Source: Acidithiobacillus ferrooxidans ATCC 23270 (GTDB taxonomy: Bacteria; Pseudomonadota; Gammaproteobacteria; Acidithiobacillales; Acidithiobacillaceae). From it: a stretch of 64,000 bases of DNA. Below the pieces are notes generated by a model. The model searched no databases. It was not told the DNA's origin and saw only the letters and a program-made list of their open reading frames with translations. The position numbers and the translations under genes are program-made. Below are positions 16,431-28,357 of this stretch, piece by piece (within the stretch, counting starts at the first letter, position 1; each line of letters begins with the position of its first letter). The stretch is from assembly GCF_000021485.1 (NCBI RefSeq), contig NC_011761.1, forward strand, positions 1,642,001 to 1,706,000, written 5' to 3'.

Positions 16431-16550
16431 TCGTCATTCTCCTGATTTCAAGTTTAGAACTGAACCAATACTGCCCTGATTGTAGTCAGTGGGCGTTCCG
16501 TCTGCAAATGACCTGCCAGTCGTTTGCACCTGTATTGCCCCCGATTATTC

Positions 16551-16579
16551 TTGACAGCCGCCGCCCCCTTGCCTAGCTT
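16551..16579 (+). promoter_or_regulatory. Promoter of pgsA, placed for a leaderless mRNA
   Basis: A perfect -35 TTGACA (16551-16556), a 17-base spacer and TAGCTT (16574-16579) end 7 bases before the pgsA ATG at 16587. Transcription would begin at or within two bases of the start codon, and no SD is present. Confidence 0.5.
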
Positions 16580-16586
16580 CACGGTC

Positions 16587-17135
16587 ATGAACCTTCCGAA
16601 CCTGTTGACCTTGCTGCGGCTCTTTCTGGTGCCTGTAATTTTCTATGCACTGGCGAGGGGATTTTTTGCCGTGGCATTGGTCATTTTTTTCGCAGCGGCG
16701 ATTACCGACGCGTTGGATGGCTGGATAGCCCGCCATTACCATCTCCAGACCCGTCTGGGTGCCGTTCTCGACCCGGTGGCGGATAAATTACTTGTAGTCA
16801 CGACGGTTATCACGCTGACCTGGTTGCAGCGCATTCCGTTGTGGCTGACAGTCGCCGTTATCTCCCGGGACCTGTTGATCGTCGGTGGCGGTCTGCTCTA
16901 CCTGCTGTTGATCGGAAAATTCAGTATCCACCCGACGCTGCTGTCGAAATGGAACACCGCGTTACAATTCGTCGTCATTGTGCTAGTGCTGTTAGAGGCG
17001 TCCAGCCGCTGGCAGATGCCGCTGCTGCCGGTTTTTATCCTGGTATTCGTTACGGCCGTTGCATCGGGGGGGCAATATGTCTGGGTCTGGAGTCGCAAGG
17101 CCATTGCCCAGGACAGGGCTTCCGGCCAATCATGA
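16587..17135 (+). CDS. pgsA: CDP-diacylglycerol--glycerol-3-phosphate 3-phosphatidyltransferase
   Basis: PgsA makes phosphatidylglycerophosphate, the committed step to acidic phospholipids, in the inner membrane. The 182-residue protein starts MNLPNLLTLLRLFLVPVIF and carries the CDP-alcohol phosphotransferase signature DALDGWIARHYHLQTRLG followed by AVLDPVADK (D-x2-DG-x2-AR-x8-G-x3-D-x3-D). Five or six membrane helices are evident. The ATG at 16587 gives the typical family length. A longer in-frame non-ATG start at 16524 would cross the promoter. It overlaps hda by 4 bases. Confidence 0.95.
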   Translation: MNLPNLLTLLRLFLVPVIFYALARGFFAVALVIFFAAAITDALDGWIARHYHLQTRLGAVLDPVADKLLVVTTVITLTWLQRIPLWLTVAVISRDLLIVGGGLLYLLLIGKFSIHPTLLSKWNTALQFVVIVLVLLEASSRWQMPLLPVFILVFVTAVASGGQYVWVWSRKAIAQDRASGQS

Positions 17136-17845
17136 TGGGGAACCGACAGCGCATTCTCCCCTTGGGTGTGCAGGCGCCCGCAACACTGGAGGGATATTAC
17201 CCCTGTCCCAACGCGGCGGCACTGCACGCAGTGTTGAAGCTGGTGGCTGAACCACAGGGCCTATGTCTCTACCTTTATGGCCCGGGCGGAGTCGGTAAAA
17301 GTCATTTGCTGCTGGGGGCGGCTTCGGCACTTGCCGGCTGGACCCCGTATATGGATTGTGGAGATGTCCCTCAGCTATTCAACAGGATAAAGGATTTGGA
17401 GGGGTTCTCCAGCCTCGTAGCGGCGCCCCTGTTGTGTCTGGATAATATCGAGGTCTGGGCAGGTCAGCGCGATAAGGAAACTTTTTTATTCGACCTGTAC
17501 AATGAGCGCATGAGTAACGGGCGGCCGATGCTCCTTGCCGGTCGGGCGGCACCCCGGTTCTTGGACTGGGCGCTTCCCGACTGGGCCAGCAGGGCGAGCG
17601 CCTGCCTGCAAGTCGCACTGCGTCTGCCCGATGACACGGAAAGAATGGCTATTCTGCAGGAAATGGCGCAGCGCCGGGGTCTGCAGATAGGTGTAGAGGC
17701 AGCGCATTATCTGTTACGTCATCATGCTCGCGATCCCCGTACACTGGATGGCTTGTTAACTATACTGGACGCCGGAAGCTGGGAGCATCAGCGGGAAGTG
17801 ACCATTCCTTTCATACGCCTTTGCCTGGGTGCAGAGAAGCCATGA
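17132..17845 (+). CDS. hda: DnaA regulatory inactivator Hda-like AAA+ protein
   Basis: This is a 237-residue DnaA paralogue without the DNA-binding domain IV. It contains Walker A GPGGVGKSHL, a Walker B-like LLCLDNIEVWAG, and the ALRLPDDTERMAILQEMAQRRG region typical of DnaA/Hda. The N-terminus holds QRILPL, close to the QLxLPL sliding-clamp-binding hexapeptide of Hda. Hda with the clamp converts DnaA-ATP to DnaA-ADP; the role here is inferred from the family. The true start is the ATG overlapping the pgsA stop (ATGA); a longer in-frame extension runs back through pgsA and is spurious. Confidence 0.85.
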   Translation: MMGNRQRILPLGVQAPATLEGYYPCPNAAALHAVLKLVAEPQGLCLYLYGPGGVGKSHLLLGAASALAGWTPYMDCGDVPQLFNRIKDLEGFSSLVAAPLLCLDNIEVWAGQRDKETFLFDLYNERMSNGRPMLLAGRAAPRFLDWALPDWASRASACLQVALRLPDDTERMAILQEMAQRRGLQIGVEAAHYLLRHHARDPRTLDGLLTILDAGSWEHQREVTIPFIRLCLGAEKP

Positions 17846-24853: not shown

Positions 24854-25708
24854 TTGGGGGTGATTGTCGCCACCATGGATGGAGATCCCCTCGTGGCGGG
24901 GGCGTGCGATGCTACCCTGGACCGTGCGTTACATTACGGCGACGGGCTTTTTGAAACCATTGCAGTGATCAGGGGTGTCCCCCTGTTTTGGGAGGAGCAT
25001 CTGGCGCGACTCGAGCGTGGCGCGACCATTCTGAATATTCCGGCACCTCATCCGGAAGTCTGGCGCGAAGATTTACGGACGGCGCTGGATGCTATCCCGG
25101 CGCAGCCGCGCCTTCTCCTTAAACTGACCCTCGGTCGTGGACCAGGGCCGGGGTACGGCAGCGCCGGCGCGGGCCCTCCCCGCCGCTATCTGTGGTTGTC
25201 CCGGTGGCCGGAGCGAAACCCGCACTACTGGAACCCCGGCATCTCCGCCGCAGCCTGCGAGGTCGCCTTGCTCACCGGCGCGCCGTATCTCGGCGTCAAA
25301 TCTCTCAATCGCCTGAACCAGGTTATGGCCCGGGATGCCCTGGCCCCCGAATATGCCGAGGGGGTCATGATGGACCAGTCGGGACTGTTGCGCGAGGGCA
25401 TCATGTCCAATCTGTTTTGGGTAATGACTGGTGTTGTCCATACTCCGGAGCTGGAAAACGGCGGCATCGCTGGTGTTCAGCGGGCCGCCATTCTGGCATG
25501 GTTGCAGGCCCATGGCGTGCCGACCCGCTTGGGCCACTGGCCACTGACGGTGCTTCAGGATGCTGACGAAATATTTTTCAGCAACAGTCTCATCGGTGTC
25601 TGGCCCGTGCGCTACTTCATGGGGCGCGAATTACCCGGGCATGACGGACCTATAACATCCGTCCTCCTCGCATGGACTCGGGAAATGGGTCTGGGGCCAC
25701 AACCGTGA
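24854..25708 (+). CDS. pabC: Aminodeoxychorismate lyase
   Basis: PabC is a PLP-dependent fold IV enzyme that makes p-aminobenzoate for folate. The protein (up to 284 residues) has the fold IV segments RALHYGDGLFETIAV, GVKSLNRLNQVMARDALAPE with the PLP lysine, and EGIMSNLFWV. The start could be TTG (24854) or GTG (24860), with no clear SD. Position between fabF and mltG matches the E. coli fabF-pabC-mltG-tmk-holB order. A branched-chain aminotransferase is less likely because of this context. Confidence 0.9.
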   Translation: MGVIVATMDGDPLVAGACDATLDRALHYGDGLFETIAVIRGVPLFWEEHLARLERGATILNIPAPHPEVWREDLRTALDAIPAQPRLLLKLTLGRGPGPGYGSAGAGPPRRYLWLSRWPERNPHYWNPGISAAACEVALLTGAPYLGVKSLNRLNQVMARDALAPEYAEGVMMDQSGLLREGIMSNLFWVMTGVVHTPELENGGIAGVQRAAILAWLQAHGVPTRLGHWPLTVLQDADEIFFSNSLIGVWPVRYFMGRELPGHDGPITSVLLAWTREMGLGPQP

Positions 25709-26718
25709 CCCGCAGACGTATGGTGGTTCTGCTCATTCTTCTGACCGTATTATTTCCTGTCGGATTTTACGGCATCGGCATGTATTGGCCGAAAACTCTA
25801 CCGGCGAAGGGGGTGACGGTCCCTATCCCCCTTGGCGCCAGTGACGCGCAGAGTATCGCCAGCCTGGCGCGTTCCGGGGTGCTGCCATACCCGCGCCTGT
25901 TTCATCTGGCTTGGGCGCTGGCCGGGCATCCGGCCATGCAGGCCGGACTGTATGAGTTCAGGGGCAGCATTAACCAGGAACAGGTGCTGCACCGCTTGAT
26001 TGCCGGTCGGTCCACGCCCCTTAATCTGCTGATTGTGCCAGGCTGGCGTTTGCAGGACGTGGTCCGGGAAATACGGGACAGTGCCCCCTATCTCAACCGG
26101 CGGGATCTGCCTCAGGAGGAAGGGGTAGCAACGCGCCTGGCGCAGCGGGGCATCGGCGCAGAGGGCAGTGCGGAGGGCTGGCTTTTCCCGGATAGCTACC
26201 GTTACGTGCCGGGCACCACGGCGCTGAGTGTGCTGCGGCGCGCCTACGTGCGCATGCAGCACGAATTGCAGACCCTGTGGGCCGGGCGCGCTCCCGGACT
26301 GCCGCTCCATGATCCCTACCAGGCACTGATTCTGGCTTCCATCGTACAAAAGGAGGGGGCACCCCCGGCAGAGCAGGCACATATTGCGGCCGTGTTTCTC
26401 AATCGCTTGTGACACGGGATGCCTTTGCAATCCGATCCTACCGTGATTTATGCTTTGGGCGGGCGCTATACCGGGCTTTTGACAGCACAGGAGATGCATG
26501 TGGACAGCCCTTATAACACCTATCTGCATGCCGGATTGCCGCCTACACCCATTGCGATGCCAGGATTCACCAGCCTGATGGCCGTGTTGCATCCGGCGAA
26601 CAGTACCGACCTCTATTTCATTGCTCAGGGAGATGAGTACCATTATTCCGAGAGTTACGCGCAACACCTCAAGCAGATACGACGTTATCTCCAACATGCG
26701 GGAGGAGCGGATCAGTGA
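25705..26718 (+). pseudogene. mltG: Endolytic murein transglycosylase MltG, interrupted by an in-frame TGA
   Basis: MltG cuts nascent glycan strands in the inner membrane. The full frame from GTG 25705 (GTGA overlap with pabC) to the stop at 26716 is 338 codons, the family length. It is broken only by TGA at 26410-26412. Before it are the membrane anchor (residues 5-25), SAEGWLFPDSYRY, the catalytic region LASIVQKEGA and AAVFLNRL. Directly after it, in the same frame, comes HGMPLQSDPTVIYALGGRY and the rest of the YceG domain (ATG-started piece 26419-26718). Homologues read NRLRxGMPLQSDP, so TGA replaces the conserved Arg, most simply a CGA to TGA change. It could be a nonsense mutation, a sequence error or readthrough (TGA-C context). 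Confidence 0.85.
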
Positions 26719-27359
26719 AGGCGACCACACGAAAGAGCGGATTTTTCCTTACCCTGGAGGGTATTGAGGGTGCGGGGAAAAGTTCAGCCCTGCCGGTGCT
26801 GGCGGAACTTTGCCATCAGCAGGGTTATGCCGTTGAAGTTACCCGGGAACCGGGCGGAGGGCCACTTGGGGAGGCGTTGCGCACCATTTTTCTGGACGAT
26901 AGCCTGCACCTGGATGCGGATGAGGAACTGCTTCTGCTCTATGCCGGACGCCGGAACCACTGGCGGACACGTATCGCGCCTGCGCTGGCCGCCGGGAAGG
27001 TGGTCATCAGTGACCGCTATGAAGACTCCACTTACGCTTATCAGAGCGGCGGAAGGGGAGTCCCTCCCGCGCACATTGCGGCGCTGGCACGCTGGGCGGG
27101 AATCACCCGCCGTCCAGACCTGACGTTTTGGTTCGATATAGCGCCGGAGTTGGGTGCAGCACGTATCCGCATGCGCCGCCCGGATCGGCTGGAACAGGAA
27201 GACCAGGCCTTTTTCCGCCGCGCTAGGGCGGTCTTTGCGGAGCGTTGCGCGGCCGAACCACAAAGAATCTGGCGCGTCGATGCGAGCCTGCCCCTGGCGA
27301 TGGTGCATGACGCTGTGCGGGCAAGGCTCGCCGCCGGCCTGGCAGCCTTTTATTCATGA
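26715..27359 (+). CDS. tmk: Thymidylate kinase
   Basis: Tmk phosphorylates dTMP to dTDP. The 214-residue protein has the P-loop EGIEGAGKSS, the DR(Y/H) motif in VISDRYEDSTYAYQ and a lid segment RRPDRLEQEDQAFF. The start is GTG overlapping the mltG stop (GTGA), so its translation is coupled to the distal part of the broken mltG. The stop overlaps holB by 4 bases. Confidence 0.95.
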   Translation: MKATTRKSGFFLTLEGIEGAGKSSALPVLAELCHQQGYAVEVTREPGGGPLGEALRTIFLDDSLHLDADEELLLLYAGRRNHWRTRIAPALAAGKVVISDRYEDSTYAYQSGGRGVPPAHIAALARWAGITRRPDLTFWFDIAPELGAARIRMRRPDRLEQEDQAFFRRARAVFAERCAAEPQRIWRVDASLPLAMVHDAVRARLAAGLAAFYS

Positions 27360-28357
27360 ACATGCCGCGCCCGACGCCTGCGGAGTGGTCGCCGATATGG
27401 AGACTGGTGCAAACCGGTCTGCCCCAGGCGATGCTTGCCGCAGGCGAGTCGGGAACGCTGGTCGCACAGTACTGCGATGATTTGCAACAGGTGGCGCTGT
27501 GTTTTGCGCCAACGGCGCAGGGGCTGCCCTGTGGAACCTGCCGTTCCTGCCGTTTGTTGGCGGAGGGCAATCATCCCGATCTGCTGATGATCACTCCCGA
27601 AACCGGAAAACGCATCACCATTGAGGCGGTGCGCCATGCCAACGAGTTCCTCGCCTTCACCCCGCAGGTCAGCGCGTGTCGCTGGCTGCGCATCGCGCCG
27701 GCCGAGGCGATGACTGCGGCGGCGGCCAATGCCCTGCTTAAAACCCTGGAGGAACCTGCGGCGCGTGCCCATATTCTTCTGCTCAGTGAACACCCGTCAC
27801 AGCTTATTCCCACCATCCGATCCCGTTTGCAGAGATTGCCGTTCCCGACGATGCTTCCGGGGCAGTGCGTGAACTGGCTGGAAGGTCTCGGCATACCGCC
27901 TGCGGAGGCGCTCTCGTTAAGTCGGCAGTTTGCGAACCGGCCATTGCGTGCCTGGCAACTTTGGGAATCCGGATGGGTCACGCTGCGCCGAACCTGGATC
28001 GAGACGCTGTTGAACCTTCCTCGGCAAGGGCCTGTCGCCGCTTTGCGGCTGGCAGACAACTGGGCCAAAGACACCGACTTGCTGCTGCTGCGCGAACTGG
28101 TTCTAAGCCTGTTGGCGGATTTGCTGCGTCTTCAAGGCCATCGCCTGGACAACGTCGTGCATTTAGACTATCTGCAATCGCTGGAGGTTATGGCGCAATC
28201 GGCCCGGGTCGCGTGCCTCTGGCCGGCCCTGGAGGGGTGGGCGCGGCTGCCTGAGTCGCTTGCGCAGAATCGCAATGTGGGGATGACACTGGAAACGTTA
28301 TTGTTGAATTGGGTAGGCATTTGGTCAGGACAGGTGGCGCATGGAATTACAAGCTGA
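27356..28357 (+). CDS. holB: DNA polymerase III delta-prime subunit
   Basis: HolB is the clamp-loader delta' subunit. The 333-residue protein contains the zinc-binding cysteines of CGTCRSCRL, the DnaX-like region [20 protein letters not shown], and the SRC-like sensor IPTIRSRLQRLPF. The P-loop Lys of DnaX is missing, as expected for delta'. tmk-holB-pilZ is a conserved string in gammaproteobacteria. Confidence 0.93.
   Translation: MNMPRPTPAEWSPIWRLVQTGLPQAMLAAGESGTLVAQYCDDLQQVALCFAPTAQGLPCGTCRSCRLLAEGNHPDLLMITPETGKRITIEAVRHANEFLAFTPQVSACRWLRIAPAEAMTAAAANALLKTLEEPAARAHILLLSEHPSQLIPTIRSRLQRLPFPTMLPGQCVNWLEGLGIPPAEALSLSRQFANRPLRAWQLWESGWVTLRRTWIETLLNLPRQGPVAALRLADNWAKDTDLLLLRELVLSLLADLLRLQGHRLDNVVHLDYLQSLEVMAQSARVACLWPALEGWARLPESLAQNRNVGMTLETLLLNWVGIWSGQVAHGITS

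Follow-up and report, generated by a model that had tools for sequence, protein, structure and literature searches.

A premature TGA interrupts mltG in Acidithiobacillus ferrooxidans ATCC 23270 and probably marks a recent nonsense allele

MltG (YceG) is an endolytic murein transglycosylase with a PF02618 domain, for which chains 2R1F and 8YQ7 have been solved. In Escherichia coli, loss of MltG lengthens glycan strands. Premature stop codons in the gene have been described: in Enterococcus faecalis a spontaneous one removes the last 57 residues of the protein (PMC11633384), and a mltG stop mutant of Vibrio cholerae is described in a paper that reports no significant consequence in V. cholerae and E. 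coli (PMC8820737). Our literature search found no paper naming mltG together with Acidithiobacillus, and the accessible portions of strain-comparison papers hold no base-level data on this gene.

The mltG gene described here lies in the closed, single-contig genome of A. ferrooxidans ATCC 23270 (2,982,397 bases), within a stretch of 64,000 nucleotides (genome positions 1,642,001 to 1,706,000) that we refer to as the window. The local gene order on the + strand is pabC, mltG, tmk, holB: a pabC-type class IV aminotransferase gene (24854..25708; PF01063) precedes mltG, and tmk (26715..27359; PF02223) and holB, encoding DNA polymerase III delta prime (27356..28357; PF13177), follow it. The interrupted mltG frame opens at ATG 25672 or at GTG 25705, the latter overlapping the pabC stop, and runs to its natural TGA at 26716-26718, which tmk overlaps. 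A second TGA at 26410-26412, in the context TTG-TGA-C, occupies codon 247, at about 70% of the gene length. A first-pass annotation of this DNA had described a single in-frame TGA in an otherwise intact mltG, and our analysis bears this out: both halves of the frame match PF02618, and the base after the stop is C. Counting from ATG 25672, however, residue 246 is the final one ahead of the stop, where that annotation had given 235. The sequence around the TGA (26390-26417, CCGTGTT...GACACGG) can form a hairpin, whose core CCGTG/CACGG is also present in a related complete genome (G003) that has CGG at the site; the hairpin is thus not specific to the stop.

Like characterized members of the family, the A. 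ferrooxidans frame carries the glutamate of an IVxKE motif (IVQKE, Glu228) and an NRL-(R)-xGMPLQ motif, and its two pieces match chains 2R1F and 8YQ7 separately; unlike them, it has TGA in place of a nearly invariant arginine, Arg247, and specifies a product of 246 residues. The 5' part (25672..26412), comprising a membrane segment and the initial two thirds of the YceG domain, Glu228 included, matched positions 2-183 of the 275 positions of PF02618 (E 1.8e-32), and the 3' part (26413..26718), in which the frame is still intact, matched positions 187-274 (E 8.9e-32). Taken as one frame with the TGA inside it, mltG matched with E 2.3e-72. Standard translation therefore yields no complete domain in a single product, as it covers positions 2-183 only. 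Glu228 is invariant in 16 aligned sequences and lies upstream of the stop; the first-pass annotation had called the catalytic glutamate region normal. The product lacks the remaining 102 codons, the last 99 residues of which match positions 163-255 of 8YQ7; missing is the last 30% of MltG, and with it roughly one third of the catalytic domain. A truncated protein of this kind is very likely inactive. AlphaFold, given 16 close sequences, produced a model of poor quality (mean pLDDT 41.6), which we set aside.

No relative carries the stop. All 16 genomes of other Acidithiobacillus species examined have the gene, and none has a stop inside the mltG domain. A sample of the phylum gave the same picture: 144 of its 150 genomes matched, ATCC 23270 included, and the other 143 have no stop inside the domain. 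For two genomes of that sample (G104 and G165) the domain match was split in two, again with no stop. Codon 247 is CGG in the closest two species, Acidithiobacillus ferruginosus CF3 and G003, whose mltG genes differ from that of ATCC 23270 at 37 and 47 of 1047 bases respectively. Elsewhere in the genus it is CGG, CGC or CGT, with CAA (Gln) in one metagenome-assembled genome, and Arg247 is nearly invariant across the 16-sequence alignment. One further record (G013; loci L010 and L018) contains a pair of distinct mltG genes, both intact, whose products share about 82% and 62% identity with the ATCC 23270 protein; this record is probably a mixed metagenome bin. A search of viral contigs for stray sister-strain sequence covering the site found nothing.

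TGA is thus two transitions away from the sister codon CGG. A CGA to TGA transition had been proposed earlier; a point nonsense change, present in no relative, fits what we found, but the sister codon requires two changes rather than one. The ATCC 23270 branch is rich in G to A changes at third codon positions (codons 123, 152, 236, 297 and 341), which makes a silent CGG to CGA change followed by CGA to TGA plausible; the alternative intermediate is TGG.

We counted changes on the ATCC 23270 branch against two sister species and two outgroups, excluding codon 247. The branch carries three non-synonymous and ten synonymous changes in mltG (2:6 before the stop and 1:4 after it), where an unconstrained gene would be expected to show about 70% non-synonymous changes (P about 0.0004-0.0009 over the full gene and 0.02-0.03 after the stop). 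The only non-synonymous change after the stop is D310N, at a nearly invariant residue. Judged from these counts, mltG was under constraint for most of the branch. Such constraint is as compatible with a young stop as with an error in the record or continued use of the frame, and does not distinguish among the three.

Our preferred reading, to which we assign a probability of about 0.68, is that the TGA is a recent nonsense allele of the ATCC 23270 lineage that leaves a truncated, inactive MltG. The arginine codon would have become TGA by the two transitions outlined above, and translation would end at residue 246 to give a membrane-anchored fragment that keeps Glu228 and, having lost its C-terminal part, almost certainly has no activity. 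The loss would be tolerated because those Gram-negative bacteria that have been studied can do without MltG and because other lytic transglycosylases remain; the genome has six SLT-domain loci. The essential tmk gene downstream would be served by its own ribosome-binding site, which is predicted to be strong (duplex at 26715, -10.3 kcal/mol), so that it need not rely on ribosomes coming from mltG. Two observations weigh against a nonsense allele: the frame shows no decay downstream of the stop, with D310N set against four synonymous changes, and the lack of any mltG stop in the other sampled genomes indicates that loss by this route is rare.

The main rival of a nonsense allele is an error of sequencing or assembly, or a variant in the culture that was sequenced, such that a sense codon actually occupies the site and MltG is made at full length. 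We consider this unlikely, yet it deserves the most weight among the alternatives. It would account for a frame constrained on both sides of the stop, for the absence of the stop from every relative, and for mltG being the sole interrupted real gene in the compared part of the window. Had the codon already changed to TGG, or silently to CGA, a single wrong base would be enough. Against it, the codon differs from that of the sisters at two bases, and no single error can turn CGG into TGA; the record is, moreover, a closed single-contig genome. Either way, an ordinary loss of function or a sequencing error, with no new mechanism, is the most likely account of this TGA.

A reassigned or specially decoded TGA was considered as well. 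Most of the window could be set against G003, and 18 kb of it against a second genome, G007; neither comparison revealed another in-frame stop in the body of a real gene. The remaining stop hits fell before normal starts, in overlapping antisense frames or in the frameshifted C-terminus of a phosphatidyltransferase-like gene. The compared part thus shows no sign of TGA reassignment. In the region of that phosphatidyltransferase-like gene (16476-17238, the gene ending at 17135), the frame changes near the C-terminus relative to G003 and the last residues are not shared. We reject decoding as selenocysteine, given the absence from the genome of any match to SelA and of any tRNA-Sec over the cut-off, the best match being a tRNA-Ser with anticodon CGA. 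A suppressor tRNA is rejected too: among the tRNAs identified by ARAGORN at RF00005 places, a survey in which a few weak RF00005 places had no ARAGORN call, none has a UCA anticodon, those of the array at 1.027-1.036 Mb included. This array (genome positions 1027148-1036012; L045 and L046) comprises 34 tRNA genes called by ARAGORN, which between them serve nearly all amino acids and include no stop-codon anticodon; a few weak RF00005 matches within it had no ARAGORN call. One report places a tRNA set in the mobile element ICEAfe1 (PMC10322971), and the array is presumably that set.

Functional readthrough at a low level, with a near-cognate tRNA reading TGA-C often enough, in a few percent of passages, to supply the full-length MltG needed, is improbable. 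In E. coli, a C after the stop reportedly makes for weak termination (Poole et al. 1995), few amino-acid changes have accumulated downstream, and one relative tolerates glutamine at site 247. However, a programmed event might be expected to be conserved among related species, and none of the 16 other Acidithiobacillus genomes shares the stop; neither a suppressor tRNA nor the selenocysteine components named above were found, and release factor RF2 is intact. A young stop explains the whole-branch constraint just as well, and the five changes downstream are not enough for a decision. The first-pass annotation had raised readthrough, for which we found little beyond the TGA-C context itself. Still less probable is that TGA-C is maintained as a leaky stop whose low yield of full-length MltG tunes glycan strand length. 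Least credible is a two-part protein, also suggested earlier, in which a restart at ATG 26419, in frame just after the stop and opening an intact frame of 99 residues, supplies a second piece that assembles with the first into an active enzyme: this ATG is the conserved Met of GMPLQ, lacks a Shine-Dalgarno site (predicted ribosome-binding energy -3.4 kcal/mol, matched or beaten by 56% of + strand ATGs in the window), and would start a piece inside the domain with no membrane segment or export signal, hence cytoplasmic, while MltG works outside.

If the nonsense allele is real, the type strain widely used in biomining is a natural mltG mutant, which would matter when its envelope, osmotic behaviour and antibiotic response are compared with those of other strains. 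It would also provide a natural isolate in which MltG is dispensable, with no new mechanism indicated.

In its form the A. ferrooxidans gene resembles a single-nonsense pseudogene allele of the kind found in strain genomes, having one stop, an otherwise intact frame and no counterpart in relatives; it departs from that pattern in having a TGA that is separated by two changes from the codon of its sister species. The premature-stop alleles of E. faecalis LSL2Imi (PMC11633384) and V. cholerae mltG::stop (PMC8820737) likewise lose part of the catalytic domain or activity. Those stops arose under selection or by design, whereas the one in A. ferrooxidans stands in the genome of a type strain.
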